NCBI RefSeq assembly: GCF_011751745.2
Contig: NZ_CP061170.1
Location: 496,001-560,000 of the forward strand
Source of the DNA: Paramicrobacterium fandaimingii
GTDB taxonomy: Bacteria > Actinomycetota > Actinomycetes > Actinomycetales > Microbacteriaceae
DNA length: 64,000 nucleotides
Reading direction: 5' to 3'
A model generated the notes under the pieces. The model saw only the letters and a list, made by a program, of their open reading frames with translations, searched no databases and was not told the origin of the DNA. Numbering within the stretch: the stretch's first letter is position 1; the number at the start of each line of letters is the position of its first letter. The position numbers and the translations under genes were made by a program. Positions 27,208 through 43,981 of this stretch are shown piece by piece.

Positions 27208-27219
27208 TGAATCGTTTCA
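27208..27219. promoter_or_regulatory. LacI-type operator TGAATCGTTTCA before the rha operon
   Basis: Palindrome with central CG (reverse complement TGAAACGATTCA). It lies 26 nt upstream of rhaT and is identical to the site in front of the esterase gene at 43970-43981. LacI-family proteins bind 12-16 bp palindromes with a central CG step, so this is a strong operator candidate. Confidence 0.75.
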
Positions 27220-27285
27220 CGGGTAAACTCAGACTAGGGTCATCCCTGCAAATCTGTCAACAGAAGGCAGCGCGCGTTATCGAAC

Positions 27286-27297
27286 TGAGACGATTCA
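27286..27297. promoter_or_regulatory. LacI-type operator TGAGACGATTCA before the lacI gene
   Basis: One base different from TGAAACGATTCA, the reverse complement of the site near rhaT. It lies 44 nt upstream of the LacI-family gene and 66 nt from the other operator, so one regulator could control both divergent promoters and itself. Confidence 0.65.
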
Positions 27298-27340
27298 TTT
27301 CGCAGTGTATGCTGACGTGCAGTCGCCCACGGGAGGGAAA

Positions 27341-28348
27341 ATGTCAGTCAGCGTTCGTGACGTCGCCGATCGCGCCCAGGTGTCGGTCGGCACGGTATCG
27401 AATGTGCTCAATCGGCCAGAGCGTGTTTCGCCGACCACCGTCGAGCGCGTCACAGCGGCGATCGCCGATCTTGGTTTTGTGCGCAACGATGCAGCTCGCC
27501 AGCTGCGAGCCGGTCGCAGCCGAAGCATCGCTTTGTCCGTGCTTGACATCGGCAACCCCTTCTTCACGGACATTGCTCGGGGCGCCGAAGATCGGGCTCG
27601 CGAAGCGGGGCTCTCTGTACTGCTCGCCAACAGCGACGAGGATTCGGGCCGCGAATCGGAGCACCTCGACCTGTTCGCAGAGCAGCGCGTCTTCGGCATC
27701 CTGCTCACACCCGTCGGCGCGCGACCCGAGAGGCTCGAGTCACTGCGTCGGCAGGGAACCCCAACGGTGCTCGTCGACAGGCAGACCGACAGTTCCGACT
27801 TCTCATCTGTCGCAGTTGACGACGTCGCAGGCGGGTACATGGCAGTGAAGCATCTGCTCGACATCGGCCGCCGACGCATCGTGTTCGTCGGAGGTCCTGC
27901 TCGGATTCGGCAGGTTGCCGACAGGCTCGAGGGTGCGCAGAAGGCGGTCGCCGAGGTGGGCGATGCCACGCTCGACGTGGTTCTGCAGGAGTCTCTGTCG
28001 GTGCTGCAGGGGCGGGCAGCGGGCGAGAGACTGAGTGCGCGACCGGCATCGAATCGACCGGATGCTGTGTTCGCAGCGAATGATCTGCTGGCGATGGGTC
28101 TGCTTCAGGCGTTCGCGATGCTGGGAAGCATCCGGGTTCCTGATGACGTCGCGCTGATCGGGTACGACGACATCGACTTCACCAGGGCGTCGGTTGTGCC
28201 GTTGTCATCTGTTCGTCAGCCCAGTCACGAGATCGGGCACACGGCGGTTGATCTGCTGCTGAGGGAGAACGCGGAAGGCCCGTCGTTCACGCACGAGCAG
28301 ATCGTGTTTCAGCCCGAGCTCGTCGTGCGGGAATCGACCGGCAATTAG
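27341..28348 (+). CDS. LacI-family regulator of the rhamnose operon
   Basis: 335-residue repressor. The N-terminal LacI helix-turn-helix VRDVADRAQVSVGTVSNVLNRPERVSP is complete, including the hinge helix region (NDAARQLRAGRS). The remainder is a periplasmic-binding-type effector domain (IALSVLDIGNPFFTDIARG ... DAVFAANDLLAMGLLQAF ... LIGYDDIDF). ATG 27341 is preceded by GGGAGGG at 27331-27337. It is divergent from the rha operon and flanked by two matching palindromes. Inference: it senses L-rhamnose or a rhamnose phosphate. Its recognition region (GTVSNVLN) is the same as in the second LacI at 29495, so the two may share sites. Confidence 0.92.
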   Translation: MSVSVRDVADRAQVSVGTVSNVLNRPERVSPTTVERVTAAIADLGFVRNDAARQLRAGRSRSIALSVLDIGNPFFTDIARGAEDRAREAGLSVLLANSDEDSGRESEHLDLFAEQRVFGILLTPVGARPERLESLRRQGTPTVLVDRQTDSSDFSSVAVDDVAGGYMAVKHLLDIGRRRIVFVGGPARIRQVADRLEGAQKAVAEVGDATLDVVLQESLSVLQGRAAGERLSARPASNRPDAVFAANDLLAMGLLQAFAMLGSIRVPDDVALIGYDDIDFTRASVVPLSSVRQPSHEIGHTAVDLLLRENAEGPSFTHEQIVFQPELVVRESTGN

Positions 28349-28761
28349 TCGAATGTCGGCTCGGCATCGGTATCGGGAAGTGCCTGCTGCAGTCGACGGA
28401 TGAGATCTGGGAGATCTCGTGTGGCGCTGATCCAGAAGGACTCATCGTCCATCTGTGAATACCCACCATGAGCGACAATATTGCGTACAGCAACGAGCGA
28501 TCGCTGCTCTGTCTTCGTCAATACCCCGTGGAGAAAACTGTTCTCCTGGCGCTCCAGGACAGTGGTCAAACGAACGATGGCCATCGAAGCCGCGTCGTAT
28601 GACGGCGATCCATCGATGAAGTCGGTGCGGCGAGTTCCGATCACCTGCGAGTGCAGACGCATATCGATTCGTTTGAGCTCGGCACGGAGGTTGGCTCGAT
28701 CTGTTTCTCGCCGGCCCTGGGAGGTGATGCGGGGACGCGGTTTGAACGGCTCGTCAGTCAC
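28345..28761 (-). CDS. hepT: HEPN-domain toxin (DUF86/HepT-like)
   Basis: 138-residue helical protein. The HEPN RNase motif appears as R93-N-I-V-A-H98-G-G-Y101, a variant of RX4-6HXY with one extra Gly before the Tyr. FWISATRDLPDLIRRL after it matches the HepT C-terminal helix. Its start overlaps the end of the MNT gene by 4 nt (ATGA), the classic antitoxin-toxin arrangement. In characterised pairs the HEPN toxin cleaves RNA and is silenced by AMP transfer to the motif Tyr. The ~40-residue basic N-terminus is longer than usual. Its end overlaps the convergent lacI stop by 4 bp. Confidence 0.8.
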   Translation of the reverse strand: MTDEPFKPRPRITSQGRRETDRANLRAELKRIDMRLHSQVIGTRRTDFIDGSPSYDAASMAIVRLTTVLERQENSFLHGVLTKTEQRSLVAVRNIVAHGGYSQMDDESFWISATRDLPDLIRRLQQALPDTDAEPTFD

Positions 28762-29234
28762 AGCGGAACCGACTGATCGGCGGCCGATTTACCGTGTGAG
28801 CTTCGACTCGCTGATGCCTTTTCGTGCACATCGGCCGGGAATCCCGTGAGTTCTTCGACGTCGGCAGCATAGGCGCCAAGGCTGAAGAGCGACAGAGGGT
28901 GTTCGGCATCGACAAGTATGTCGATATCGCTGTCGAAATGGTCTTCACCCCTCACGAGGGAGCCGAAGAGACTCACCGACGTGAACCCCCGGTTGCTTGC
29001 GGCCGTTCGGAGCGCGTCTGCGTTCAAGGCGACGGCGACAGAGGGGCGAAAATCTGCTGCGGAGAGGATGCGCTCGAGCATCATGGGTGATGGACGCCGT
29101 TTGCCCGATTCCATTTCTGCAAGGTTCGGCTGGCTGATCGTCGCACGCAGAGCCAGTTCCTTCTGGCTCAGATTCGCATCGAGACGTGCGGCTTTTATGA
29201 GTTGAGCTGCACGCACAGGATCGAACCGTGTCAT
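28758..29234 (-). CDS. mntA: MNT-type nucleotidyltransferase antitoxin with N-terminal XRE helix-turn-helix
   Basis: 158-residue two-domain protein. Residues 10-62 are an XRE helix-turn-helix (AARLDANLSQKELALRATIS QPNLAEMESGKR, split here for length). Residues about 80-155 are a minimal nucleotidyltransferase with the active motif GS(91-92)-X10-D103-I-D105 (GSLVRGEDHF then DSDIDILVD). MntA proteins inactivate HEPN toxins by AMPylation; the fused DNA-binding domain should add autoregulation. The message is probably leaderless: a -10 box GATAAT lies 6 nt upstream of the ATG. Confidence 0.85.
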   Translation of the reverse strand: MTRFDPVRAAQLIKAARLDANLSQKELALRATISQPNLAEMESGKRRPSPMMLERILSAADFRPSVAVALNADALRTAASNRGFTSVSLFGSLVRGEDHFDSDIDILVDAEHPLSLFSLGAYAADVEELTGFPADVHEKASASRSSHGKSAADQSVPL

Positions 29235-29240
29235 ACATAA

Positions 29241-29269
29241 ATTATCTCATCAATGGGATACCAGGGCAA
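29241..29269 (-). promoter_or_regulatory. Promoter of the MNT-HEPN operon, leaderless
   Basis: On the minus strand, TTGCCC (29264-29269) and GATAAT (29241-29246) are separated by exactly 17 bp. The ATG of the antitoxin begins 6 nt after the -10 box, so the transcript should start at or next to the start codon. The rest of the gap to 29494 has no ORF. Confidence 0.6.
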
Positions 29270-29494
29270 CGATATGACGGATTCCTCTCAGAAGGACTGA
29301 TACCTGCTGGTGATTTTGTATCCCCAGAGTACGGGCGCGAATGGCAGCATCCGGAATGTCGTGAGGACTGACTAGCGCGGACCGAGTGGTGGTTGATGCA
29401 CGGGGATCTGGCCGGTTGGCCGGGATGGTGCCGGTTCATACCGCGCTCATATCTATGATGGTTTGAGCGCGCTGCGCGAGAAGGAGAGGGCACC

Positions 29495-30499
29495 GTGGCC
29501 AGTCCGGTCGGAATTCGAGAAGTGGCTGAACGAGCCAAGGTGTCCATCGGGACAGTCTCTAACGTTCTCAACAAGCCCGATCTTGTCTCTGCTAAGACGC
29601 TCGAGCGTGTGCTTGCCACGATGGACGAACTCGGCTTCGTGCGAAATGATCTGGCTCGGCAACTCAAGATGGGTGGCGGAACGACTCTCGGGATGATCGT
29701 TCTTAACGTGGCGAACCCGTTCTTCGGTGACCTGGCCCACGCGTGCGAGAGCGCTGCAGAGGCCCACGGCCACACGGTGATCTTCGGAAGCAGCGACCAG
29801 CTCGTTGGCCGCGAGGACCGCTATATCGAACTGTTCGAGGAACAGCGCGTCCGCGGCATGATCATTGCCCCCCTCGATGGGCCGACCGAGCGGATTGAAC
29901 GGCTTATTCGCCGCGGCATGCCTGTCGTTCTCTTCGATATTCACGCGGGCGAAGGCGACTTCTGTTCTGTGGCGATGGACGGTGCAGAGGGCGGGTACCT
30001 GGCCACCCGTCACCTCCTCGAGTCAGGACGTCGAAAAATCGCGTTCCTCGGTGGTCCACTTCATCAGGTGGAGGATCGCTGGACTGGTGCGCTCAGGGCG
30101 GTCGACGAGGTAGATGGAGCAGTTCTCACCCACATCGACACCGTCGACCAGACGATCGCTGACGGGAGGGCGATCGGTGATCAGCTGGCGGCAATGGCTC
30201 CTGAGTCTCGACCGGACGCGGTGTTCGGCGCAAACGACCTGCTCGCGCTCGGTCTCATGCAATCACTCGTCATTGCAGACGGGCTCAAGGTGCCGCGCGA
30301 TATTGCCATCGTGGGCTACGACGATATCGACTATGCGGCATCGGCAATTGTTCCCTTGACGACGGTGCGCCAGCCGAAAGAGTCACTGGCACACGAGGCG
30401 GTTCGGCTGGTGCTCGACCATGCGGCAGCTGGCACGTCGCACGTTCACGAGCACTCTCTGCTGCCACCTGAGCTCGTAGTCAGAGCGAGTACAGTCTAG
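29495..30499 (+). CDS. LacI-family regulator, probably of the rhamnoside genes
   Basis: 334-residue LacI protein. HTH IREVAERAKVSIGTVSNVLNKPDLVS and hinge LARQLKMGGG; effector domain with LGMIVLNVANPFFGDLA, DAVFGANDLLALGLMQ and IVGYDDIDYA. GTG 29495 has AAGGAGAGGG upstream. It resembles the rha-operon LacI closely, including the recognition helix. It stands directly before the convergent GH78 gene. Inference: it binds TGAAAGGTTTCA sites at 33862 and 42929 and responds to a rhamnose-containing sugar. Confidence 0.9.
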   Translation: MASPVGIREVAERAKVSIGTVSNVLNKPDLVSAKTLERVLATMDELGFVRNDLARQLKMGGGTTLGMIVLNVANPFFGDLAHACESAAEAHGHTVIFGSSDQLVGREDRYIELFEEQRVRGMIIAPLDGPTERIERLIRRGMPVVLFDIHAGEGDFCSVAMDGAEGGYLATRHLLESGRRKIAFLGGPLHQVEDRWTGALRAVDEVDGAVLTHIDTVDQTIADGRAIGDQLAAMAPESRPDAVFGANDLLALGLMQSLVIADGLKVPRDIAIVGYDDIDYAASAIVPLTTVRQPKESLAHEAVRLVLDHAAAGTSHVHEHSLLPPELVVRASTV

Positions 30500-30527
30500 G
30501 GATCATTCGCACGGGCCAGCTGCCGAG

Positions 30528-33500
30528 TCACCAGGTTGAACGAACCGCGCTGAAGCCCGTCTCTCCGAGCTGGAAAGCGAGCGGAACATCGTCTTCGGCG
30601 GCAGACGAGTATGCGGTTTCTGGCTGCTCCCGCACTCGCACACCAACCTCCACCGATGTGATCGAGGTGAACGCGGCAAGGCGGGTTACGTCGACGCTCA
30701 CGCGGTTCCACCCGGCCGGCCAGATGGTGCCGACTCCCCGAGCGATGCTTCCGTCGGCGCCGGTGACGATGATGAACGACTCCAGGGCACGTGTGGGATT
30801 ATCGAGACAGAGGTCGAGCATCGCATACACAAACCTCGCGTCTCGTCGATCTGTGCCGAGACCGGAGACAGGGAATCGGGCAGACAGCTGTGTGCCTGCT
30901 CCGAGGACGGCAGCTGGTGTGCGGTGAGTGCCTTGCACGAGCACGACAGGACCTTCTGGCTGCTCGTGCGGGACGGGCATGCACTGCAGCCCGGAGGGCA
31001 GGATGACGATGGGCAGCGCATCAACCGCGGTAACAGAATCGACAGCGAGAGCATTCGACAGCCAGTCGCGCTCGCCGATAACGTCCGGCGACGGAGCCGG
31101 TCTGTACGGAGCCTGCCACGACGGATCGTCCGGCAGCGACGTGTGCTGCGATTTCCTCTCCACTGTGAATCGCCGAGTGTACGTACCCGCCTTGAGAATT
31201 TCTTCGCGGTTTCCAGCGAGTCGCAGCACGGCTTCAGAAGAGACCGGAACGGTGAGCTCGATAACCCCGGCGCTTCCATCGAGCCAGTAGTGCACGTCAA
31301 TCGTCCCGCGCACAGTGTGAGTCGTGAGCGACAACGTGTCGATGCCCGTCACGAATTGAGGCTCGACGGTGAAGCGCGACCATGCAGCTCTGGTCGGGCG
31401 CACACCCGCAAGCCATTGCCACGCCCAACCCGCGACCGGTCCTCCGAGACCGACATGATCGAGGGACCCGGTTCCGGTATTGGCTGGGTCGATCCACCAG
31501 CACTCCCAGAATGTGCCCGGCCCGTGATCGATCATTGCTCCGATGCCTGGCTCGGCCGGTTGGTGAAGTGCATCGAAAATCGACTGTGAATGGCCAGCCC
31601 GAGCGAGAGCGCGCACCGTCGTTCGCGTCGCGGCAAAGCCTGAGCTGAGGCGATGTCCTCGTGCGTAGACGTCCTCGGCGATACGATCGGCTGCGCGGTG
31701 CGCGGCGGGTCCCGAAAGCGTGGCGGACTCGACTGCTACCGCGTTCGCTGCCTGCGTGCCGTTTCCGAAGACATCACGCCCAGCATCGTAAAACGCGGCG
31801 TATGCCGATCGACGCAGCTCATCTGCCTGTTCCCGCCTGGTTGCTGCGGCATCCAAATCTCCAGTCTCCTCTTCGAGCATGGCGAGTGACTCGAGGCAAT
31901 CGATCACGGCGCCAGTGTGGTGAATTGGCGGTGGCGTTTGAGTGAGCGCGAGCCAGTCTGAACCGTAGCTGATCGGTGCGCCGTCAATGGTGCCCTCGTC
32001 GCCCCGCAGCATCCACAGATAATCTGCCCAGTCCCGCAGAGCCGGAAGAGTCTCGCGCACCACCCGCTCATCGCCGTAATGCAGCCAATGGCCCAGGAGT
32101 ACTCGCTGGAGCGCGCCACCCCAGACGGGATCTGGGCTGATCCGCGGCCGTCGGATGTCGGGAGAGATTGCCGGTATGCTGCCGTCGGCTTGCTGGCTCG
32201 TGCGCAGATCTGCGAGCCACTTTGCGAAGAATGCCTGCATGTCGAACGCCGAGAATGCGAACTCGGCAGCAGAAGCCGTATCGCCAGTCCAGCCCGATTG
32301 CTCGCGAGTCGGGCAGTCTTCAGGAATTCCATGGAGGTTATTGAGCAGGGTTCGCTGTGCAACGTGCGAAAGCGCGGCGACGTGTGAGTCATCTGTCGTG
32401 AGCTCGCTGACGCTCTGCAGATCAGAGTGCAGACTCCATGCTTCAACGCTGAGGCGGGCGTCGGAGGGAATGCCAAAAATCTCGACGTAGCGGAAGCCGT
32501 GATAGGCGAACCACGGCTCACAGACAGCGTGCGACGTCGGTCCGGTGACGTACTCGATAACCTGCCGCGGGCGTCCGTTGTCGAACGGCATCGTGAGGTT
32601 CGTCGTATCGAGTCGGCCGCTCGCGTCGACGTGTTCGCCGTGAACCACTCTCACCACGGTGCCGACGGGCAGCGGAGACAAGAGAGTGAGGCGCGTGCGA
32701 CCGGCGATATTCGTTCCGACGTCGTAGACGCGACTCGTGGCTGTGCGGGTGAGTTCTGTCACGGCGTGTGGCGAGACACGATGCACGGCCGGGGACGGGT
32801 CAGGGGCGACGATGGCCGGTGGAGTGGCGAATGATGCCCGTGCTGTGCTCGCTTCAAGGACGTTCAGAGCATCCGAATAGTCGAAATCGGTCGCACCTTC
32901 ACTCCATTCATGCCGCTCGAGGTAGAACGGCTCATCATGTGTGATCTCGCTGGCGGCAGCAGTCATCCCAGGGCCGGTGCCAGCGCGGACGATGGTTCCA
33001 TCGGCTGCGTGCACGACAAGCTCCGCCAGTAATCGTGGATCTTCACCAGAGCGTGCCCATTCGCCTAACCCGAGTGCGAAGTCGATTGAGTTCTCTCCGG
33101 CGACAACGAGGTCGGTCACGTCATAGCTTCGGTACAGCGCTCGACTCAGATCGGTGCGAGAAGGGTCAGCGGCGTCTGCATTCACGGCAGTTCCGTTGAT
33201 GGAAGCCCGAACGAGTCCCTGGGCGGTGAGGTGGAGTCGCGCGCGCTCGGTCACTCCATCGAGGCGCAAGGTTCGTCGCAGCACAGTGAGCGCGGGATGA
33301 GACACCCAGCTCGCACTCCAGTCATCGAGGCTCCACGGGCCCGTTTCGAATCGCGATGGTTCTGCCCAGCCCGACCACGTGCCAGCCTCGTTTCGCACTT
33401 GGACTGTCCATGCGTACAGGCCGCCGGCGTCGAGCTCGGTGTCGAGTTCGATAAAAGGGTCATTGGACTCGACGGCACCGCTGTCGAAGATGTGAGCGGA

Positions 33501-33728
33501 ATCGTCGGGTCGCGGATCGATCGGTCCCACGCTTGCGCGCACCCTGAACGCGGTCTGCAGTTGACCATTGTGCTCAAGGGGAATCACCCACGAAAGCCGC
33601 GGTCTGCGCTCGGACGCGAGCGCAACGAACCGATCTTCCGATCTGCGAGACGATGTCTCGCAGGAAGCTCGCGCATCGTCAGTGCGACGTCCGTCTACTC
33701 TCAGCGATGTTGGTATCGGACTGGTCAC
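30528..33728 (-). CDS. Alpha-L-rhamnosidase, GH78
   Basis: Intracellular glycosidase of about 1066 residues that removes terminal alpha-L-rhamnose. Order: N-terminal fibronectin-like and jelly-roll domains (LSWVIP...; RLHLTAQGLVRASINGTAVN), a (alpha/alpha)6 catalytic barrel, then a C-terminal beta domain and an extra ~200-residue C-terminal region. The catalytic segment EDCPTREQSGWTGD (residues ~470-483) carries the conserved acids, but has TREQSG where most members have QRDERLG. No signal peptide. GTG 33728 is chosen since GAAGGGG lies 5 nt upstream; ATG 33794 would add 22 residues with no clear ribosome site. It is divergent from the ABC transporter operon across a TGAAAGGTTTCA operator. 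Confidence 0.9.
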   Translation of the reverse strand: MTSPIPTSLRVDGRRTDDARASCETSSRRSEDRFVALASERRPRLSWVIPLEHNGQLQTAFRVRASVGPIDPRPDDSAHIFDSGAVESNDPFIELDTELDAGGLYAWTVQVRNEAGTWSGWAEPSRFETGPWSLDDWSASWVSHPALTVLRRTLRLDGVTERARLHLTAQGLVRASINGTAVNADAADPSRTDLSRALYRSYDVTDLVVAGENSIDFALGLGEWARSGEDPRLLAELVVHAADGTIVRAGTGPGMTAAASEITHDEPFYLERHEWSEGATDFDYSDALNVLEASTARASFATPPAIVAPDPSPAVHRVSPHAVTELTRTATSRVYDVGTNIAGRTRLTLLSPLPVGTVVRVVHGEHVDASGRLDTTNLTMPFDNGRPRQVIEYVTGPTSHAVCEPWFAYHGFRYVEIFGIPSDARLSVEAWSLHSDLQSVSELTTDDSHVAALSHVAQRTLLNNLHGIPEDCPTREQSGWTGDTASAAEFAFSAFDMQAFFAKWLADLRTSQQADGSIPAISPDIRRPRISPDPVWGGALQRVLLGHWLHYGDERVVRETLPALRDWADYLWMLRGDEGTIDGAPISYGSDWLALTQTPPPIHHTGAVIDCLESLAMLEEETGDLDAAATRREQADELRRSAYAAFYDAGRDVFGNGTQAANAVAVESATLSGPAAHRAADRIAEDVYARGHRLSSGFAATRTTVRALARAGHSQSIFDALHQPAEPGIGAMIDHGPGTFWECWWIDPANTGTGSLDHVGLGGPVAGWAWQWLAGVRPTRAAWSRFTVEPQFVTGIDTLSLTTHTVRGTIDVHYWLDGSAGVIELTVPVSSEAVLRLAGNREEILKAGTYTRRFTVERKSQHTSLPDDPSWQAPYRPAPSPDVIGERDWLSNALAVDSVTAVDALPIVILPSGLQCMPVPHEQPEGPVVLVQGTHRTPAAVLGAGTQLSARFPVSGLGTDRRDARFVYAMLDLCLDNPTRALESFIIVTGADGSIARGVGTIWPAGWNRVSVDVTRLAAFTSITSVEVGVRVREQPETAYSSAAEDDVPLAFQLGETGFSAVRSTW

Positions 33729-33829
33729 ATTGGCCCCTTCGCCGCTCGTCACGAACGTGACTTTCTGAGAATTCTCGCCGCCGCGAATGAACATTTCATC
33801 ACGGTAACCGAACGAACCTCAACTTCAAC

Positions 33830-33858
33830 TTGACAAGTTTCTGCAACTCGCACATCAT
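33830..33858 (+). promoter_or_regulatory. Candidate promoter of the rhamnoside transporter operon
   Basis: Perfect -35 TTGACA (33830-33835), 17-bp spacer, and a weak -10 CATCAT (33853-33858). The LacI-type operator 33862-33873 starts 4 bp after the -10 box, a position where bound repressor would block initiation. Confidence 0.5.
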
Positions 33859-33861
33859 AGC

Positions 33862-33873
33862 TGAAAGGTTTCA
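33862..33873. promoter_or_regulatory. LacI-type operator TGAAAGGTTTCA in the rhamnosidase/transporter divergent promoter
   Basis: Palindromic except for the central GG step. An identical 12-mer lies before the exported enzyme (42929-42940), and related sites flank rhaT and the esterase. It is 91 nt upstream of the binding-protein gene. Confidence 0.75.
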
Positions 33874-33963
33874 ATTTTGAGTATTTGCACCGATGATGCT
33901 GTCGGAACATGCGCTCGCACCGAAACAGTCCTGCTTTGAACAATCACGTTAGGAAAGCTGACA

Positions 33964-35310
33964 ATGACGTCACACACAGCGAGAAATTCGCGCCGTGCGA
34001 TTGCTGCTCTTGCCGCAGCGATCATGATCCCAGCGCTTGCCGCGTGCGGAGGAAGCTCCGCGTCCGGGAGCGGAGGGGCCGGCGAAGTCAAGGGAAGTTC
34101 CATCGTCCTCACGACAATCACCGGACTCGAGCCGCAGTTTCAGAAGTACGCAGACGCGTACATGGAGGCATTCCCCGACCGCAAGGTAGAGGTTCGCAGC
34201 ACCACGGACGACGCTGCCGAGTACGCGCAACAGCTCGCAACCGCGCGATTAAGTGGTGAACTGCCCGATGTCTTCTTCAACGTGGACTTTCTCGCAGACA
34301 CGCTCGCCGAAAACAAGGTCACTCTCGACTTAGCGCAAGGCTTGAAGGAGGGAAAGCTCGGTGACCTCGACGCTGACTCGTTCCTTCCGCAATTCGTCGG
34401 ACAGTATCGCCCCCTCGCCGATCCGGACACGATCACTGGACTTCCCGTGAGCGCTGACTCGGTCGGGTTGTTTTACAACAAGTCCCTTTTTGATGAACTC
34501 GGAGTATCTGAGTATCCGCAAGCCGACTGGACGTGGGACGACATGTATCGCGTCGCGGAGGAGATCCAGGACAAGAGCGGCGACACCGTGACGGGGCTTG
34601 GCGCACCGCTCGGCGACGGATCTGATCTCATCGTGTTCGGCCCGGTCATCAAAGCCTTTGGTGGCACGGTCTTCGACCCGGAGACCGGGAAGTCTGGAAT
34701 CGGTCAGCCAGAAGCTCTCAAGGCGTGGGAGCTGCTCCTTGACGCATACGGAACGGCGTCCGGGCCGTACACCACAACGACAGACGATCCCTCGCTCAAG
34801 TTTGAATCGGGAAACGTGGCAATGGCGATCGCATCGCGCGGAGCAGTGCCCGGACTCCAGACGACGCTCGTCGACGATGACTGGGACGTTCAGACGATGC
34901 CGACGATCAACGGCAAATCGACAGCGGGCGGCGGTTCGTACGGGCTCTCGATTGCGCAGACCAGCGAGAACCAGGATGCCGCATGGGCATTCTTGAGTTG
35001 GTTCTACGACACCGATACCGGAATGAAGGTCGCGCAGGACGTCGGTGGAGTCATCCCTCCCACCGACAACGGCATCGACAACGGCACCTGGAAGGACGGC
35101 GCTGCGCCGCCCGAGCACATCGAGATCTTCGGTGACTCTGCCCGTGAAGCCGTGCTCATCGATCAGATGCCTGGCTCCTCTTCGACCACACTTAAGGAAG
35201 CGACGAAGAAGGCAACCCAAGAAGTGGTGCTGAACGGTATGTCGATAGAAGAGGCATTCGGTGCGGCAGAGAAGACCGTCAACGAGGCAATTGAGAAGGA
35301 AAGCAAGTAG
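33964..35310 (+). CDS. ABC transporter substrate-binding lipoprotein for rhamnose-containing sugars
   Basis: SBP_bac_1 lipoprotein of 448 residues. The signal ends in LAACGGSSASG, with lipidation at Cys. Typical binder text follows, such as LPDVFFNVDFLADTLAENK and GLPVSADSVGLFYNKSLFDELGV. The ATG has AGGAAAG upstream. It heads an operon with two permeases and a GH78 rhamnosidase, so the ligand is inferred to be a rhamnosylated oligosaccharide or glycoside. The ATPase is not in the operon and is presumably shared. Confidence 0.9.
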   Translation: MTSHTARNSRRAIAALAAAIMIPALAACGGSSASGSGGAGEVKGSSIVLTTITGLEPQFQKYADAYMEAFPDRKVEVRSTTDDAAEYAQQLATARLSGELPDVFFNVDFLADTLAENKVTLDLAQGLKEGKLGDLDADSFLPQFVGQYRPLADPDTITGLPVSADSVGLFYNKSLFDELGVSEYPQADWTWDDMYRVAEEIQDKSGDTVTGLGAPLGDGSDLIVFGPVIKAFGGTVFDPETGKSGIGQPEALKAWELLLDAYGTASGPYTTTTDDPSLKFESGNVAMAIASRGAVPGLQTTLVDDDWDVQTMPTINGKSTAGGGSYGLSIAQTSENQDAAWAFLSWFYDTDTGMKVAQDVGGVIPPTDNGIDNGTWKDGAAPPEHIEIFGDSAREAVLIDQMPGSSSTTLKEATKKATQEVVLNGMSIEEAFGAAEKTVNEAIEKESK

Positions 35311-35317
35311 CGGGCAA

Positions 35318-35346
35318 CCGGGTGGGACGATGCTCGTTCCACCCGG
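35318..35346 (+). terminator. Intercistronic hairpin after the binding-protein gene
   Basis: 13-bp stem, CCGGGTGGGACGA (35318-35330) with TCGTTCCACCCGG (35334-35346), one wobble pair and a 3-nt loop. It starts 8 nt after the binding-protein stop and likely sets the ratio of binding protein to permease. Confidence 0.72.
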
Positions 35347-35369
35347 ACTCCTGATCATCGGAGATCGTA

Positions 35370-36329: not shown

Positions 36330-37156
36330 TGCGTACCTCACGCACAAGCAAGATCGTCCGCTACGTTGCGGTACTTCTCGGCGGACTTGTCATGGCGACG
36401 CCATTGCTCTTCATGGTTTCGGGCTCGCTCAAGTCTGCAGCCGAAGTCAATGCCTTCCCGCCGGTGCTGGTGCCAGAGACGCCAATCTGGCAGAACTTCG
36501 TTGACGCGTGGAATTTCTTGACGCCGCAGGTGATAGGAAACACCTTCATATTCAGCCTTGGCGTCGTTGGCCTGCAACTGCTGCTGTCGTTGCCGGCTGC
36601 TTTCGCCCTCGCAAAGATTCCGTTCAAATGGTCTGCCGCGATACTTGCGACGCTTGTCGTGCCCATGCTCATTCCGGGCAACCTCACGCTCATCCCTCTC
36701 TTCATCGTGACGTTTGAGTTGGGGTGGCTCAATACATTTGCCGGGCTCATCATCCCGATGGCTGCCCAATGCGCGTTCTCGATACTTCTCTTCAGACAGT
36801 TCTTCGCGACGTTGCCGTCTGGGCTCATTGAAGCGGCGCGCATCGACGGCGCCAGTTGGTGGAGAGTGCTGACATCCATTGCGCTGCCGCTGGCTAAGCC
36901 CGCTCTCGCAACGTTCTGTTCGATCAGCTTCCTCACCGCCTGGAATATGTACATCTGGCCCCAGGTCATTGCACCAAACCCCGCGAACAAAGTGATCAAC
37001 GTGGCCCTTGCGCCGCTCGCCGGCGGCGAGAACTCTGTCATATCACCGGCTATCGGGCTCGCCGGTGCGGTCATCGCCATGCTTCCCGTCCTCATCGTGT
37101 TCATCGTGTTCCAGAAGTGGTACCTGAAGGGCGTCGCCGGAACGGGGCTTGAGTGA
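36329..37156 (+). CDS. ABC transporter permease (MalG type), rhamnoside operon
   Basis: 275-residue permease starting at ATG 36329, with GGAAGGAG at 36312-36320. It shows six hydrophobic segments and the loop LIEAARIDGASWWRVLTSIALP, the EAA motif of the MalG class. A longer in-frame ORF from 36038 overlaps the previous permease and is rejected. Its end overlaps the rhamnosidase start by 1-4 nt. Confidence 0.9.
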   Translation: MRTSRTSKIVRYVAVLLGGLVMATPLLFMVSGSLKSAAEVNAFPPVLVPETPIWQNFVDAWNFLTPQVIGNTFIFSLGVVGLQLLLSLPAAFALAKIPFKWSAAILATLVVPMLIPGNLTLIPLFIVTFELGWLNTFAGLIIPMAAQCAFSILLFRQFFATLPSGLIEAARIDGASWWRVLTSIALPLAKPALATFCSISFLTAWNMYIWPQVIAPNPANKVINVALAPLAGGENSVISPAIGLAGAVIAMLPVLIVFIVFQKWYLKGVAGTGLE

Positions 37157-39771
37157 TGCCTCCGTCCGGCGAGTCGCCTCTTACAGAAGCGAGTCCTCGA
37201 CCGTCGGGTTCCCCTCGCGCGCACGTCACACGTCCGCGTGCTGAGTACCTTGATGACGCATTCGGTATCGGCACGGCATCGCCCCGGCTGTCATGGCGCA
37301 TTGAATCGGCGTCTGCCGGGTGGCGATCTGATCGATACTGGCTGGGTCTCGAAAGGGACGATGGTGCGACGGAGACTGTGGTCGTCGACTCTGACGAGCA
37401 ACTCTACGTTCCCTGGCCGTTCGCCCCGTTGGCGTCGCGCGAGCGGGTTCGTGTGAGGGTTCGAGTGGGAAGCGGAAACACGTGGACCGATGAGAGTGAG
37501 CCCCTCGAGATCGAGGCTGGACTGCTCGAACAAGACGATTGGGTGAAACAGCTCATCAGTCCGTCGACGATCGGGAGACTTGACGACGGTGCTCCGCTGC
37601 TGTTCGGGAGCGCCGATCTCGACGCAGAGCCGATTTCGGCTCGGCTCTACCTCACGGCACACGGCATTGTCGAGTTCACGATCAACGGCAATCGAGTCGG
37701 CGACGATGTGTTCGCCCCTGGATGGACAGCCTATGAGAAGCGTCTGCGCTATCGGAGCTACGACGTCACGCCGCTTGTGCGCAGAGGAACCAACGAGCTG
37801 CGTGCTCTCATCGGAAATGGCTGGTATCGCGGCCAACTCGTATGGCCTGGCAATCGATCGAGTTACGGAGATCGCCTTGGCGCCCTCGCACAGCTCGAGG
37901 TGAACTATGCGGATGGTTCGCGAGAAATCTTCGGAACGGATGCTTCATGGGGTGCCGTGCCCAGCAGCATCCTGTTCGATGATTTCTATGACGGGCAACG
38001 TCGCGACCTGAGGATCACAGATTCTCCCGAAGGTAAGCGCGTGGATTCTGTCGATGTGCTTGACGGGGATTTCGCCCGCCTCATTGCGCCGTCCGGGCCG
38101 CCCGTGCGCATTACGGAGACGCTTGCGGCTGTGCAGCTTCTGACGACGCCGTCCGGCAAGACAATCGTTGATTTTGGGCAGAACCTCGTGGGGTGGGTGC
38201 GCCTTCGTGTGCATGGCGAGGCGGGTGCTGAAGTGACGATTCGCCACGCAGAGGTTCTCGAGCACGGAGAGCTCGGTGTTCGCCCACTCCGCAGTGCCCT
38301 TGCGACCTGCACCTACACGCTCTCTGGCCAGCCAGAAGAGATTCTGCAACCGACATTTACCTTCAATGGATTTCGATACGCAGAGATTTCGGGCGTCCCC
38401 GAGCTGGCGCTCACTGACGTTGAAGCACTCGTGCTCGGGACAGATCTTCAGCGCACTGGGTGGTTCGAGTCGTCTGACCCGCGGGTCAATCGTCTCCACG
38501 AGAACGTCGTGTGGAGCACACGCGGCAACTTTCTCGATGTGCCAACCGACTGCCCTCAGCGCGACGAGCGACTCGGATGGACGGGGGACCTTCAGGTCTT
38601 CGCCCCGACAGCGACGTTCTTATTCGACACAGCGGGCTTCCTCTCGGGTTGGCTTGGCGACCTCGCGGCGGAGCAGAAGCCGGACGGCGGGGTTCCGTAC
38701 GTGATCCCCGATGTTCTCCGCGAGCCCAATCCTGCGGCCGCTGCCTGGAGTGACGCGGCAACGATCGTTCCCGAGGCCGTGCACCATGCATATGGCGACG
38801 TGGGTGTGCTTCGGCAGCAGTACCCATCCATGAAGGCGTGGGTTGAGAAGGTCCGCAGCATTGTGGGTCCCGCTCTGCTGTGGCGCACGGGTGCCCAGTT
38901 CGGCGATTGGCTTGATCCGACGGCGCCGCCAGACGACGCTTCACGCGCTCAAGCAGACCCGGCTGTCGTCGCTACGGCCTATTTCGCGCGGTCTGTGGGG
39001 ATTCTCGCGCGCACCGCTGAAACACTCGGCCTTCGCGTGGAAGCTGCGGATTACGCGCAGCTCGAGAAACAGGTGCGCGCCGCATTTATTTCGGCGTACG
39101 TCAGCGAAGACGGGCGCGTCCACAGCGATTGCCAGACTGTCTACGCGCTCAGCATCGTCGGTGATCTCTTCGCCAGCGAACGGCAGCGCGCCGGCGCGGG
39201 CGATCGCCTCGCCGAGCTCGTGACCGCAGCGGGTTTTCGTGTCAGCACGGGTTTCGTGGGAACCCCTGTCATTCTTGACGCGCTTTCTACTGCGGGATAC
39301 CCAGAGTTGGCATATCGGATGCTGCTCGAGGAGTCCTGTCCGTCGTGGCTGTACGCCGTTTCAATGGGGGCAACGACGATTTGGGAGCGTTGGGACTCGA
39401 TGCTGTCCGATGGATCGATCAATCCCGGCTCGATGACCTCGTTCAACCACTATGCGTATGGGGCCGTTGCCGACTGGCTGCATCGATGTGTCGCCGGCCT
39501 GTCGCCGAGTTCGCCTGGTTATAGGACTGTGGACGTTCGGCCGCTTGTCACCGGTGATCTGTCGAGCGCGTCGGCTCGTCATCTCTCACCGTATGGGGAG
39601 ATCGCGGTGGAGTGGCGGCTCGAAAATGGCCAGGTGGACCTCACGTTGACCATTCCCTACGGTGTGACCGCCGATGTATGGATGCCGGGCGCTTCTGTCG
39701 CTGAGACAGTGCGCAACGGCAGCCACCGATTCAGGTCTGAGCTGCAGCCGCTGCAGTACGCGCCCGAGTAG
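37153..39771 (+). CDS. Alpha-L-rhamnosidase, GH78 (second copy)
   Basis: 872-residue cytosolic GH78 enzyme translationally coupled to the importer (GTG 37153 or ATG 37156). It has the canonical layout: N-terminal domain, Bac_rhamnosid_N jelly roll (ARLYLTAHGIVEFTINGNRVGDD), concanavalin-like domain (FGQNLVGWVRLRV), the (alpha/alpha)6 barrel, and a C-terminal beta domain. The catalytic segment DVPTDCPQRDERLGWTGD at residues 462-479 is complete and standard, unlike the divergent copy at 30528. No signal peptide, so it acts on imported rhamnosides. A perfect hairpin terminator follows. Confidence 0.94.
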   Translation: MMPPSGESPLTEASPRPSGSPRAHVTRPRAEYLDDAFGIGTASPRLSWRIESASAGWRSDRYWLGLERDDGATETVVVDSDEQLYVPWPFAPLASRERVRVRVRVGSGNTWTDESEPLEIEAGLLEQDDWVKQLISPSTIGRLDDGAPLLFGSADLDAEPISARLYLTAHGIVEFTINGNRVGDDVFAPGWTAYEKRLRYRSYDVTPLVRRGTNELRALIGNGWYRGQLVWPGNRSSYGDRLGALAQLEVNYADGSREIFGTDASWGAVPSSILFDDFYDGQRRDLRITDSPEGKRVDSVDVLDGDFARLIAPSGPPVRITETLAAVQLLTTPSGKTIVDFGQNLVGWVRLRVHGEAGAEVTIRHAEVLEHGELGVRPLRSALATCTYTLSGQPEEILQPTFTFNGFRYAEISGVPELALTDVEALVLGTDLQRTGWFESSDPRVNRLHENVVWSTRGNFLDVPTDCPQRDERLGWTGDLQVFAPTATFLFDTAGFLSGWLGDLAAEQKPDGGVPYVIPDVLREPNPAAAAWSDAATIVPEAVHHAYGDVGVLRQQYPSMKAWVEKVRSIVGPALLWRTGAQFGDWLDPTAPPDDASRAQADPAVVATAYFARSVGILARTAETLGLRVEAADYAQLEKQVRAAFISAYVSEDGRVHSDCQTVYALSIVGDLFASERQRAGAGDRLAELVTAAGFRVSTGFVGTPVILDALSTAGYPELAYRMLLEESCPSWLYAVSMGATTIWERWDSMLSDGSINPGSMTSFNHYAYGAVADWLHRCVAGLSPSSPGYRTVDVRPLVTGDLSSASARHLSPYGEIAVEWRLENGQVDLTLTIPYGVTADVWMPGASVAETVRNGSHRFRSELQPLQYAPE

Positions 39772-39780
39772 CAGTCGAAT

Positions 39781-39812: not shown

Positions 39813-39832
39813 AACTCTGCAACTCACGTGAG

Positions 39833-42832
39833 CTAGAGAGAACTGGCCGCCAACCGCACTGATTTGCCCGTGGTGTACGTTTCCTCGAATGACACGCCAT
39901 TACCAGTTACCGTCACCGTGTTGTGAGTTGCGACGATGTTCAGCTGCTTTCCACGCCAGCGGAGCTGCTTCACTCCGGCATCCGTCAGGCCCGACGGCAG
40001 GTTCGGTGTGATCACGAGTGAATCTGGCTCTGCCTCGACACCGACGAACGCATAGAGGAAGCTTGCCGGTACAAGCCCGCTCTCGGGGAAGGGCACGTCT
40101 GTTCCTACAGACGACCCTGCTGTGGCACCGTCAACAGTCGACTCACCGCGGAACAGGGGAGCACCGCCGCACAGATGATCGGGTTCGCTCCAGCGATCGA
40201 GAATCGCGGTCATACGCGCCCACGCGTCATCGGCCGACTGATACCTGGCGCGTGCCATCACATCGAACCCCGACGTGTACAGAATCGCTCCGCCATCTTG
40301 CACTTCATCTCCCCAGGGCGTGGTGAGGTGGGTGAGGAAGAACCAGTAGCTGTTTCGCCTGGTTGTTGATCTCGGAGCGAACACCCACTTCGAATAGATG
40401 TCTGCTGGGCCCTCGACGTGATCATCGAGCGCCACGATGAATCGGGTCGAGGCGTTGGCATCGGGTGCCCCATCCGCGTAGGCAATGGCGCCATCCACGG
40501 GCGTTGCAGACGACCACCAGGCAAGCGAACCCGTCACGTCGGAGACCTCAAGGTAATAGACGCCCGGTTCCTGTGAATCAACGTCGATATGCGCGACGCG
40601 TCCATCGGACCAGTCGCTGAACTGCTGATCGGCGACTTTGGTCGCAGATTCCCCTGGCAGGCCCTTGTGGAGCGTCATTGTGAACGTCGCACCACGATTG
40701 CCGAATGTGGGGAATCGGGCAGCGACGCTCGTGAAGGCAGCGTCAGCGGTGAAACTCTGACCAAGGGAATGACCAGGGTCGATCATGGGAGCGAGTCCGC
40801 CGCTCTCGATGAGCACGACGGGCTCCTGAAGCTCGGTATGGCCGTTGTCGAGCCAGTCGAAGATGCGAGTGGCCATGTCGTTCGTCGGCAGCCCGAAGGA
40901 TGCTGCTTCGAGATTGACATACGTCGAGCCGTAATCGTGCACAACACCGTCCACGTCGATGGTCTGCACATATCGACCGTCGGCGTCATTCCAGAACGTG
41001 GTGTTGTACTTCTTCTTGACGAGCTTTCGCAGGCCGCGAAGTCGAGCAGCTCGTCCTCTGCGACCGGCGTGCTCCTCTAATTGGGCAACAGCTTCGAGGG
41101 CGCCGTAGAAATAGGCATTGAGGTAAGCATCCTTGTATCCGAACGACGTGACATCCCAATAGTTCGAGGGCAGTGCTCCGTCTCTGCCGTCATGATCTGG
41201 CGACGTGATCGTGACCACTCCCTTCTTGCCGTCGAGTGAGTCGATGTAGAAATCAATTGCACGCCTGACCCGCGGCATCATCGTCGACAGAAAGTCGGAG
41301 TCTCCCGTCCATGAGTAGTAGCGCCACGCACCGAGCACGTACAGCGCATTCGATGTGAAGTGTCGCGCATCGAAGAGTTCCGGATCAGGGAATGGCCATC
41401 CCTGCGAGTCAGGCCATGACCAGACGTACCCGTCTTCGTCGAGCGATGTACCCAGCAGCGAATCGGCTTGAGCACCAGCACCCGCCGTGCCCGTCCAGTC
41501 GAGAATGCGTCCTTCCCAATCGGCCCAGGCCATCGCGTGCCCGTCGAATCGATAGCTGAGTGCACGTTCCCAGTAGAACGTCGACAGTTGCGCGGCTCTC
41601 GTGCTGTCCGACGCCGTGAACACAGGGAAGATCTCGGGCAGGGCGTCTGAATGTGCCTTGATGTCGACAGCGATGGTGCGGGAGATAGCCTGCCCAGGCT
41701 CAGCACTGCCCGAATTGAGTGCAAGCGCCATCGCCTTCGCGGTCATAGTTCCGTCGATCACAGGCGAATCTCCGGTGAACCGCAGATCATACGGGCCGCT
41801 GCCCGTGGCAGTCACAGAACCTTCTCCCGAAACCGGTGTCGTCCACGCATCGCGACGCTTCAGCTGCTCTGACGGCATGTAATCACCCGCGTCCCCGTAG
41901 AAGCGGCTGAACCGGATGCCGTCTGCATCGGCGATTGAGTAGCCATCTTTGACCCATGATGTGTTGAGGGTCAGCCCTGGATCCGGTCGGGCATCCGTCT
42001 GCCACTCGATATCGTACGTCGACGTCACGGCGCTTCCATCGAGTTCCAGGTCCCACGTTGCGATTCCGTCAACGTTGAAGCCGACGACATCGAGCGTCAT
42101 GGTGCGATCTGCCTGCACCTGCCGATCGTCGTATGCTGCGCCGCCGAGGTCGACTGTCGTCTCTCCGAGTTTGCTCCACCAACCTGGAGTACCCGTGCTG
42201 TCAGAAAGCTCCATATAGTAGGTGCCGGCAGGTTGGGCGGGAACGTCGAGGTATGCCCATCCATTGTCTTGAACCGGATTGATCTCGCGGCGGGTGATTT
42301 CTGTGAGTGCGGTGTCTGGCGTTCCAGAGTAGAGCGTCATCGTGACCGTCGAGTTCTGGCTGCTCCAGGTGGGAAGCTGTGCCCCGACCTTTGAGAAACG
42401 GTACATCGATGCCGTGAATGACTGTCCGAGTGTGTGCCCAGTGCTGAGAGGCACGGGAGAGCCCACTTGATCTTGCTTGACCGTCGACGCAGATGGCAGT
42501 TGGATGCCGGTGATGCTGAGTTTCGTGTCCGTCGCGGTGTAGCTCACATCGGCGTTGAACCTGGAATCGAAGAAGTCCGTGGCTCCGACAAACACCGACT
42601 TAAACGTTGAGCGCTCAAACTTGCCTGCATCGCTCGGGTCACACGCGAACTGGGTGAGCTTGCCGTGGGCACCGGAGAGGCTGACGTATCCGTTCGTCAA
42701 CTGATACGTTTCAGATGCAGCGGCGGGTTGCTGCGGGCGGGCGAGCCCGCTCGCGGCGAGGAGAATGCCGCCGCCAGCTCCCTGGAGAAACGTCCTCCGA
42801 TTTGTTCGGAAGCGCATAATGCCGTTACCCAT
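39833..42832 (-). CDS. Tat-exported six-hairpin glycosidase-like enzyme with duplicated beta module
   Basis: 999-residue exported protein. The twin-arginine signal TNRRTFLQGAGGGILLAASG is at residues ~10-30 from the ATG 42832, which has GGAG upstream. An N-terminal beta region follows; the central part is an (alpha/alpha)6-barrel-like region (DSTRAAQLSTFYWERALSYR, DARHFTSNALYVLGAWRYYS, NSYWFFLTHLTTPWGDE) and a beta C-terminus (LVITPNLPSG). A ~90-residue module starting GHxLGQSFTA and ending WW occurs twice, at residues ~131-223 and ~686-776; the second copy is inserted inside the barrel. The exact enzyme family is not recognised; a rhamnoglycan-acting hydrolase or lyase is inferred from the operator it shares with rhamnosidase genes. 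Confidence 0.75.
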   Translation of the reverse strand: MGNGIMRFRTNRRTFLQGAGGGILLAASGLARPQQPAAASETYQLTNGYVSLSGAHGKLTQFACDPSDAGKFERSTFKSVFVGATDFFDSRFNADVSYTATDTKLSITGIQLPSASTVKQDQVGSPVPLSTGHTLGQSFTASMYRFSKVGAQLPTWSSQNSTVTMTLYSGTPDTALTEITRREINPVQDNGWAYLDVPAQPAGTYYMELSDSTGTPGWWSKLGETTVDLGGAAYDDRQVQADRTMTLDVVGFNVDGIATWDLELDGSAVTSTYDIEWQTDARPDPGLTLNTSWVKDGYSIADADGIRFSRFYGDAGDYMPSEQLKRRDAWTTPVSGEGSVTATGSGPYDLRFTGDSPVIDGTMTAKAMALALNSGSAEPGQAISRTIAVDIKAHSDALPEIFPVFTASDSTRAAQLSTFYWERALSYRFDGHAMAWADWEGRILDWTGTAGAGAQADSLLGTSLDEDGYVWSWPDSQGWPFPDPELFDARHFTSNALYVLGAWRYYSWTGDSDFLSTMMPRVRRAIDFYIDSLDGKKGVVTITSPDHDGRDGALPSNYWDVTSFGYKDAYLNAYFYGALEAVAQLEEHAGRRGRAARLRGLRKLVKKKYNTTFWNDADGRYVQTIDVDGVVHDYGSTYVNLEAASFGLPTNDMATRIFDWLDNGHTELQEPVVLIESGGLAPMIDPGHSLGQSFTADAAFTSVAARFPTFGNRGATFTMTLHKGLPGESATKVADQQFSDWSDGRVAHIDVDSQEPGVYYLEVSDVTGSLAWWSSATPVDGAIAYADGAPDANASTRFIVALDDHVEGPADIYSKWVFAPRSTTRRNSYWFFLTHLTTPWGDEVQDGGAILYTSGFDVMARARYQSADDAWARMTAILDRWSEPDHLCGGAPLFRGESTVDGATAGSSVGTDVPFPESGLVPASFLYAFVGVEAEPDSLVITPNLPSGLTDAGVKQLRWRGKQLNIVATHNTVTVTGNGVSFEETYTTGKSVRLAASSL
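40505..40777 (-). repeat. Internal protein repeat, copy B (inserted in barrel)
   Basis: Encodes GHSLGQSFTADAAFTSVAAR through SDVTGSLAWW. It aligns along its length with copy A: GQSFTA, TFTMTLHKG versus TVTMTLYSG, HIDVDSQEPGVYYLEVSD versus YLDVPAQPAGTYYMELSD. It is a divergent duplication at the protein level, not a recent DNA repeat. Confidence 0.8.
42164..42442 (-). repeat. Internal protein repeat, copy A (N-terminal)
   Basis: Encodes GHTLGQSFTASMYRFSKVGA through SDSTGTPGWW. It is the first of two homologous ~90-residue beta modules in the exported enzyme, and probably a carbohydrate-binding or jelly-roll unit. Confidence 0.8.
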
Positions 42833-42928
42833 GTGAACTCCGTTGTTCGAGTCGTTGTGTGGAGCACCGTCCCGGAGCTCCACTATTCACCGGTTCAGAG
42901 GCATCCGTGGACGCCTGCGAATTAGTAT

Positions 42929-42940
42929 TGAAAGGTTTCA
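42929..42940. promoter_or_regulatory. LacI-type operator TGAAAGGTTTCA before the exported enzyme
   Basis: Identical to the operator at 33862-33873. It lies 97 nt upstream of the exported-enzyme ATG, within the only AT-richer part of the gap. A 7-bp inverted repeat TTGACAG/CTGTCAA at 42948-42973 lies next to it. Confidence 0.75.
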
Positions 42941-43015
42941 GAGAACTTTGACAGAAGGCAGACAGACTGTCAAGCATCCTCCGTGGTTTCGCTGTCTTTC
43001 TTGTCAGTGACAGCC

Positions 43016-43960
43016 TCACACTCTTGACGGCTCGGCAGGTGAGTAGTTCGCTAACCACTCGGCGATTCGTGTGATGCTTCTTTGGGCCTGTGGGCTGTGC
43101 GGCTGATCAAGATGGCCGTGCAGGGTCTCCGGCTCAAAAGTGAGATGCACAGACACGCCAGCATCCATCGCCTGTCTGGCGAATTCTTCGCCCGACAGAC
43201 GATGCTCGTCGTACTCAGAATTGAGGATGAAGATCGGCGCCATGTCGTTGAGGCGTGCATTACCCGCAAAGGCATACGGGTCACCACGCGGCTGATCGGG
43301 TCCGAGGTAGTTGGCAACGATCTGAGTGACCAAGCTCTGCGGAAAACGCGCCTCGGAGGGAACCAGGGTGAGGACCTTCTGCAACTCGGCGGACCCCTCC
43401 GGAAGAACTTCGTGCACGAGCGGGTAGACAAGTACGGCCGACGCGGGACGAGGCCCTTGGCCGTCTCGAAGTCTGACGGCAACCCCTGCCGCCAGGTTCG
43501 CGCCCGCACTCGCGCCGCCGATGTGCATGGCACCCAAGTCGATTCCGAGTTCATCGACTGCCCAGACCCACGCGTCAAGGAGATCGATCGACGGCACGGG
43601 AAAATGCACGCCGAACAACGCCTTGGTGTACTCGACAGACAGCACAGTGAACCCGCGTGCTGCGAGGGCGAGGGCAACCCAGTTGCTCTCGGGCATATTG
43701 AGGTTTCCTCCGACAAAACTTCCGCCGTGCGCCCATACGAGAGCACCGCGCGGGGTGCCCGCCGGTGTATAAAGGCGGGCGGGAAGATCGCCGCTGTGCG
43801 CGGGAATGAGCTGGGACGTTACCGTCACATGCTTGAGATCCGGATACTGTTCAACGAGCGAGGCGATGTCGACATCGGTACGTGGATCAGGGTCGGACGT
43901 GCCACTTTCCAATTTGCGGATAGTTTCGGCGAACGAATTGGCGGCGTCGACGTCGTCCAT
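43016..43960 (-). CDS. Alpha/beta hydrolase, HSL-type esterase
   Basis: 314-residue cytosolic esterase of the hormone-sensitive-lipase family. The oxyanion motif HGGSFVGGN, the nucleophile elbow GGASAGAN, the Asp in LNSEYDEHR and the His in ETLHGHLDQ form a complete triad. No signal peptide. A TGAATCGTTTCA operator ends 10 nt upstream of the ATG and abuts the AAGGAG ribosome site, so the gene belongs to the rhamnose regulon. Inference: it removes acyl (acetyl or phenolic) groups from imported rhamnosides. Confidence 0.88.
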   Translation of the reverse strand: MDDVDAANSFAETIRKLESGTSDPDPRTDVDIASLVEQYPDLKHVTVTSQLIPAHSGDLPARLYTPAGTPRGALVWAHGGSFVGGNLNMPESNWVALALAARGFTVLSVEYTKALFGVHFPVPSIDLLDAWVWAVDELGIDLGAMHIGGASAGANLAAGVAVRLRDGQGPRPASAVLVYPLVHEVLPEGSAELQKVLTLVPSEARFPQSLVTQIVANYLGPDQPRGDPYAFAGNARLNDMAPIFILNSEYDEHRLSGEEFARQAMDAGVSVHLTFEPETLHGHLDQPHSPQAQRSITRIAEWLANYSPAEPSRV

Positions 43961-43969
43961 GCCACTCCT

Positions 43970-43981
43970 TGAATCGTTTCA
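43970..43981. promoter_or_regulatory. LacI-type operator TGAATCGTTTCA before the esterase
   Basis: Identical to the site upstream of rhaT (27208-27219). In the minus direction it is immediately followed by AAGGAG and the ATG, so bound repressor would cover the translation start region. Confidence 0.75.

Follow-up and report, generated by a model that had tools for sequence, protein, structure and literature searches.

In Paramicrobacterium fandaimingii (Microbacteriaceae), a 64,000-bp stretch of contig NZ_CP061170.1 (positions 496,001 to 560,000; called the window in the following, with all coordinates counted from its first base) carries genes for the use of the plant sugar rhamnose and of rhamnosides, two LacI-type regulators, LacI-1 and LacI-2, and short operator-like sites with either CG or GG in the centre. 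From sequence comparison, we consider it rather probable that these genes form a two-repressor LacI regulon, in which LacI-1 acts on the CG sites and LacI-2 mainly on the GG sites. LacI-1 would be RhaR and the ancestral repressor. It would control its own gene and the operon for rhamnose import and catabolism via the CG sites 27208 and 27286 and, judged by sub-type, would also act via the esterase site 43970. LacI-2 would be a paralogue that arrived with an island of rhamnoside-degradation genes gained by horizontal transfer. Its main targets would be the importer/GH78 genes and the gene of a Tat-exported glycosidase, which it would repress via the GG sites 33862 and 42929. As operators are located just behind the -10 elements, each repressor would block the start of transcription, and rhamnose or a rhamnoside as ligand would release it. 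Binding, ligand and repression in this model we infer, likewise the extent to which each repressor reads the other sub-type. The existence of a rhamnose/rhamnoside LacI regulon, the core of the original prediction for this region, is well supported.

Operators and promoters in the window

Sites, genes, their positions, conservation and co-occurrence were observed directly. All five 12-mers on which the prediction was based are present at 27208, 27286, 33862, 42929 and 43970 (Table 1). TGAATCGTTTCA and TGAAAGGTTTCA are imperfect palindromes with 10 of 12 symmetric positions, and TGAGACGATTCA is one with 8 of 12. The central CG, a usual but non-universal trait of LacI/GalR operators, is found at 27208, 27286 and 43970, while 33862 and 42929 have GG. 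With up to two mismatches, TGAAAGGTTTCA has 11 matches in the window compared to 1.51 expected (0 of 100 shuffles as high), and TGAATCGTTTCA also has 11, compared to 3.62 expected (2 of 100 shuffles as high). A scan of the whole genome revealed perfect matches to TGAAWSSWTTCA at only four places in 3.62 Mb, namely 27208, 33862, 42929 and 43970. Allowing one mismatch, 39 places, six of them inside and 33 outside the window, were obtained versus 11 for the reversed control. The 29 outside places that were read (beyond them are three plus 1883830) all lie inside at least one open frame of at least 100 codons, a crude test because sites 27208, 27286 and 43970 also fall in such frames; 33862 and 42929 are outside any. 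A sixth match, 42702, which had been absent from the predicted set, is probably fortuitous; a lacO2-like role for it was considered and dropped, as the site is not kept in the three homologues aligned.

The importer operator begins 3 nt behind the -10 element of a promoter-like sequence. The operator of the Tat-enzyme gene is located 4 nt behind CAAAGT (42950-42945), with TTGACA at 42973-42968, and the rhaT operator lies on the minus strand behind TTGACA (27260-27255) and TAGTCT (27236-27231), beginning 11 nt behind this -10 (these two promoters were assigned by eye). A sigma-70-like promoter scan of the region gave 3 sites versus 3.7 expected in shuffles, so that the importer promoter call rests on conservation and not on the scan. 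The rhaT operator and the TGAGACGATTCA 12-mer upstream of lacI-1 are both kept in two relatives (G085 and G148) with a spacing of 77-78 bp. Since the likely start codon of LacI-1 is the ATG at 27341, the latter site ends 43 nt before the start. Upstream of lacI-2, no TGAAA-type operator was found in the window; an inverted repeat, CGCGCTCA/TGAGCGCG, is present there at approximately 29441-29470.

Operator centres and LacI paralogues among relatives

Both regulators match PF00356 and PF13377 above the cut-offs, i.e. they have the LacI helix-turn-helix and a periplasmic-binding-like ligand domain, and they share 48-49% identity. Their recognition helices, described as near-identical in the original prediction, indeed differ by one residue; discrimination between sites, if real, is therefore expected from the operator centre and the hinge. 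The hinge reads RNDAARQLRAG in LacI-1 and RNDLARQLKMG in LacI-2. At E <= 1e-60, LacI-1 has matches in at least 115 of 199 genomes of the family, and LacI-2 is matched with at least 58% identity in six of the 199, its own included. Relatives have a third paralogue, LacI-3, beside TGAAACGTATCA sites. When the own genome was searched with such a LacI-3, 21 LacI-type matches at E <= 1e-20 were obtained, the best being LacI-1 (46% identical) and LacI-2 (42%), followed by a protein with 32%; the idea of an own LacI-3 was rejected because its best matches are LacI-1 and LacI-2. These two are the obvious candidate regulators as judged from their sequences, and more distant LacI proteins may also come into question.

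For the comparison, sites were defined as TGA...TCA words with a free centre and no more than two mismatches in the TGAAA arms. In 30 loci retrieved via LacI-1 (L046-L075), 27 of 31 sites are CG-centred. In addition, up to ~460 nt upstream of 161 distinct LacI proteins of the xGx helix class from the loci examined were surveyed, 100 of which came from among the LacI-1 matches listed. Ala at hinge position 52 (numbered, as are 57 and 58, according to Escherichia coli LacI) is present in 128 of the 161. A site occurs upstream of 79 of these 128, and the 90 sites comprise 87 with CG, two with GG and one with TG, in a table in which the search pattern misparsed at least three Ala rows (L257, L026, L031). 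Upstream of LacI genes with Ser52, three GG and three CG sites were found.

The GG sub-type was followed at loci whose LacI-2 is at least 66% identical (the window, L111-L116, L119, L124 and L125). L127-L131, with 29-53% identity, were left out of the LacI-2 loci, and L117, L118 and L121 were dropped from the counts, the stretch examined being devoid of the importer binding protein. Nine of the ten importer promoters at these close loci have TGAAAGGTTTCA and the tenth (L111) has TGAAAGCTTTCA; L113 has both. Each of the ten follows a TTGACA promoter. The importer promoter alignment shows that TTGACA, a -10 element (CATCAT, for instance) and the operator immediately after it are kept, with the surrounding non-coding DNA mostly diverged. 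These GG/GC importer-promoter sites span members of the Microbacteriaceae, Kribbellaceae, Ruaniaceae and Promicromonosporaceae. In six of the nine relatives, the intergenic region with the importer promoter has an extra CG site, TGAAACGTATCA, on the side facing GH78a. As further observations, tandem operators 14 bp apart occur in Kribbella (GC centres in L111:14343-14368, GC plus GG in L113) and in Subtercola (TGAAACGTATCA twice, L117:12555-12580 and L118:12853-12878), which suggests overlapping or cooperative occupancy.

When 19 genomes picked for having LacI-2 relatives were scanned with TGAAAGSTTTCA, 26 distinct places in 14 genomes were found, with one match for the reversed control. All 25 places inspected (the 26th, in G585, is without locus) adjoin genes of the rhamnose/rhamnoside system, and 22 of them are upstream of the importer, the Tat enzyme, GH78a/LacI-2, the esterase or rhaT. 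Across the 199 family genomes, TGAAAGGTTTCA occurs at 17 places in 15 genomes. Six of these precede importer, Tat-enzyme or GH78 genes (G000 twice, G057, G009, G091 and G101), and among the other 11 a cluster-protein match within 1.5 kb exists only in L105 (ABC ATPase, 36%). Counted by genome, TGAAAGGTTTCA is present at rhamnoside promoters in four of the six family genomes with LacI-2 versus one of the 193 without (Fisher p = 1.2e-6; since importer promoters are orthologous, such p-values overstate independence, which weakens the argument for a split). In G009 (named Pseudolysinimonas kribbensis in L125), the matches to LacI-2, to the binding protein and to GH78b are each broken into several pieces (L087:10506-17571), perhaps due to sequencing errors.

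Exceptions to the split and alternative readings

The assignment of CG and GG sites to two regulators, one for free rhamnose and one for rhamnosides, had been offered as a possibility and stands in part. It agrees with the CG sites of RhaR-type loci, the GG/GC importer promoters of close LacI-2 loci and the restriction of GG/GC sites to the system; the following observations weigh against a clean division. At LacI-2 loci with 58-59% identity, the importer site is TGAAACGTATCA with central CG in four of four loci with a site (L085, L120, L122, L123); no site of the pattern was found at the importers of L186 (58%) and L126 (53%), and L187 (47%) has other CG-centred sites. Promoters of the Tat enzyme are mixed, even beside close LacI-2 relatives: GG, CC or GC centres occur in G000, G091, Glaciibacter (L206), Occultella (L208) and K. 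catacumbae (L210), CG centres in G191, G057 (L077:12511), Agromyces (L183) and Promicromonospora (L148), and both site types in G008; in G009, no site was seen at this promoter. Several LacI-2 genes have CG sites upstream. In both Kribbella genomes, rhaT, located beside a RhaR-like gene (hinge RNESARQLRAG), has a GG/CC site. In G101, a genome 85% complete, a GH78 gene is preceded by a GG/CC site and no LacI-2 was detected. Of the 25 GG/GC places, three (L193, L202, L204) closely follow the 3' end of LacI-2 and do not precede any queried gene. Finally, Leu52 LacI genes are preceded by eight CG, three CC and one AG site, and two Ala52 LacI genes by a GG site (L143, L249). Owing to such exceptions, the rule that residue 52 sets the centre was set aside as only suggestive. 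Lys57 was rejected as determinant because the LacI-2 proteins of Glaciibacter and Microbacterium murale have Arg57 together with GG importer sites.

Part of these exceptions would be explained if both repressors read both sub-types, so that release of both would be needed to open the cluster (redundant or AND logic). This full cross-talk appears unlikely, albeit the best of the alternatives. The arms are the same (TGAAA/TTTCA) in addition to the similarity of the helices, the Tat-enzyme promoters have CG in some relatives and CC/GG in others, CG sites precede LacI-2 genes, and AraQ and MalR1 of Bifidobacterium are, according to the accessible part of PMC6882875, a precedent for two LacI regulators sharing sites. 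Against cross-talk, all 10 close LacI-2 loci retain exactly GG or GC in the importer promoter, and six of the nine relatives have the separate CG site on the GH78a side of that intergenic region. We regard as somewhat less likely still that LacI-1 (RhaR) reads all sites, with GG as a tolerated variant and LacI-2 having another target or a role in fine-tuning. Co-regulation of rhamnose and rhamnose-oligosaccharide genes by RhaR in Actinomycetales (PMC3870299, as far as available) and the GG/CC sites in G101 and at Kribbella rhaT are in line with one repressor; the preponderance of CG upstream of Ala52 LacI genes and the confinement of GG/GC places to the rhamnoside genes of LacI-2 genomes, and to the importer promoter across four families, speak against it.

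A joint claim which we find improbable takes the GG site as a hybrid operator, composed of one TGAAAC half as in CG-type RhaR sites and one TGAAAG half as in the GC sites of LacI-2 loci. Either of the two repressors, or a heterodimer of LacI-1 and LacI-2, could read it, and the preference for the centre would be set by hinge residue 52, which is Ala in the RhaR type and Leu in LacI-2; if true, importer and secreted enzyme would integrate two sugar signals in 12 bp. A chance origin or generic nature of the sites, for which only the sixth match, unconserved in homologues, could be cited, is hardly credible in view of the genome-wide exclusivity of TGAAWSSWTTCA, the shuffles and the conservation.

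Gene content, probable origin of the island and known regulons

The genes between 17641 and 27182 constitute the rhamnose pathway, and LacI-1 faces that operon. The two permeases of the rhaSQPT importer were assigned by position and sequence only. The second importer, whose gene order is conserved beside LacI-2 relatives, presumably transports a rhamnoside. The Tat-exported glycosidase has a twin-arginine motif (by eye); its closest solved chain is PDB 3cih, a putative alpha-rhamnosidase (E = 1.1e-4), and no NCBIfam match was obtained for it. The esterase is followed in cluster order by a pectinacetylesterase-like protein.

Table 1. Genes, operators and promoter of the rhamnose/rhamnoside region (positions in the window)
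Feature	Position	Strand or location	Evidence
FGGY sugar kinase (rhaB-like) and class II aldolase/dehydrogenase fusion (RhaEW-like)	17641..21199	-	Pfam FGGY_N/C; Aldolase_II and adh_short in one protein
rhaI, L-rhamnose isomerase	21262..22428	-	TIGR02635, 633.6 bits vs cut-off 531.35
rhaSQPT-type rhamnose ABC importer	22515..27182	-	TIGR02637 RhaS above cut-off; ABC_tran
CG-type operator TGAATCGTTTCA	27208..27219	25 nt before rhaT start	kept in G085 and G148
CG-type operator TGAGACGATTCA	27286..27297	upstream of lacI-1	sequence match
LacI-1 (RhaR type)	27305..28348, likely true start ATG 27341	+	Pfam LacI and Peripla_BP_3
LacI-2	29495..30499	+	Pfam
GH78 alpha-L-rhamnosidase a	30528..33794	-	Bac_rhamnosid6H, 178.7 bits
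Promoter-like TTGACA-17-CATCAT	33830..33858	+, before importer operon	kept in importer promoter alignment
GG-type operator TGAAAGGTTTCA	33862..33873	between divergent GH78a and importer genes	match and conservation
ABC importer, binding protein and two permeases	33964..37156	+	SBP_bac_1
GH78 alpha-L-rhamnosidase b	37153..39771	+	Bac_rhamnosid6H, 407.1 bits
Tat-exported (alpha/alpha)6-type glycosidase	39833..42883	-	weak Pfam matches: MGH1-like, GH116, GH78 barrels
Sixth match TGATACGTTTCA	42702..42713	inside Tat-enzyme gene	
GG-type operator, TGAAACCTTTCA on gene strand	42929..42940	Tat-enzyme promoter	sequence match
Abhydrolase_3 esterase	43016..43960	-	PF07859, 110.1 bits
CG-type operator TGAATCGTTTCA	43970..43981	9 nt before esterase start, at its ribosome-binding site	

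DNA similarity to two genomes of the same genus, G148 (L091) and G001 (L089), stops at the end of LacI-1 and resumes at 46290 and 46192, respectively; ~17.9 kb (28339-46190) including LacI-2 are absent from both at the same junction. G001 differs from the window on the rha side too, and for G085 (L090) similarity also stops at LacI-1, with the far side unaligned in the stretch compared. The G+C content is 0.606 in the rhamnoside cluster versus 0.644 in the rha core. Sequence comparison thus points to 28339-46190 as a rhamnoside-degradation island. All LacI-2 rows of the tree form one clade of 17 rows (support 100/100). The LacI-2 of the window groups with two Kribbella rows (fork 87/69, not starred), and a starred group of five (100/99) joins these with Glaciibacter and Microbacterium murale. 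Transfer of LacI-2 together with its targets appears likely. Of the 199 family genomes, the six that have LacI-2 are also those in which the Tat enzyme occurs. The esterase is on the island, yet its site is of the CG type. Several relatives have the esterase homologue between rhaI and rhaEW, which would fit control by RhaR. At the left edge of the stretch, between LacI-1 and LacI-2, a toxin-antitoxin-like pair is encoded (28345-29234), consisting of a nucleotidyltransferase with helix-turn-helix and a HepT-like protein, the latter below the Pfam cut-off. Just right of the junction, an FAD oxidoreductase, a methyltransferase and a type III polyketide synthase follow (46192-49026).

The arrangement is a variation on the known RhaR-type regulon. 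In the available part of PMC3870299, a LacI-type RhaR is described for Actinomycetales which co-regulates rhamnose and rhamnose-oligosaccharide genes. The region resembles this regulon in having a LacI regulator in the rha locus, palindromic operators and import, catabolic and oligosaccharide targets, a likeness drawn from the description of the regulon, for which a 20-bp consensus has been published; here, LacI-1 is divergent from rhaT, with the shared motif at 27208 and 27286. Unlike the one regulator reported there for both gene sets, a second LacI paralogue and a second operator sub-type accompany the rhamnoside genes. The same excerpts describe separate regulators in Chloroflexus, RhaR of the DeoR family and RhmR of the LacI family. 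The separation of rhamnose from rhamnose oligosaccharides is comparable, but in our case both regulators are LacI paralogues with near-identical recognition helices. AraQ and MalR1 of Bifidobacterium breve, which act on central metabolism, likewise form a pair of LacI-type regulators within a single actinobacterium, and their operators overlap; the sites printed in the accessible part of PMC6882875 are CG-centred, whereas two sub-types can be distinguished here.

The GG centre resembles rare operators of the LacI family, since among 1251 transcription factors with even palindromes the centre is CG in 1173, another pair in 49 and degenerate in 29, as given in the accessible text of PMC4052901. 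Loss of CG was tied to loss of the hinge leucine in EbgR-like factors with a single central base (PMC2329647, in the portion available). LacI-2, unlike these, keeps the hinge leucine and its sites have a two-base centre, so that its GG centre is unexplained by this rule. If LacI-2 reads GG, other residues, for instance 52 or 58, would have to matter.

In a literature search covering few subscription papers, PMC3870299 and the Bifidobacterium pair were the only accounts that turned up for a paralogue split in Actinobacteria, and no report was found of two LacI proteins there dividing the control of rhamnose genes by the operator centre. The region is a natural example, with counterparts in several actinobacterial families, of a sugar regulon that seemingly arrived with its own repressor and a slightly different operator beside a resident sister. 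It allows a direct test of whether LacI paralogues are insulated from each other or cross-talk, and of what determines the operator centre in proteins that retain the hinge leucine.

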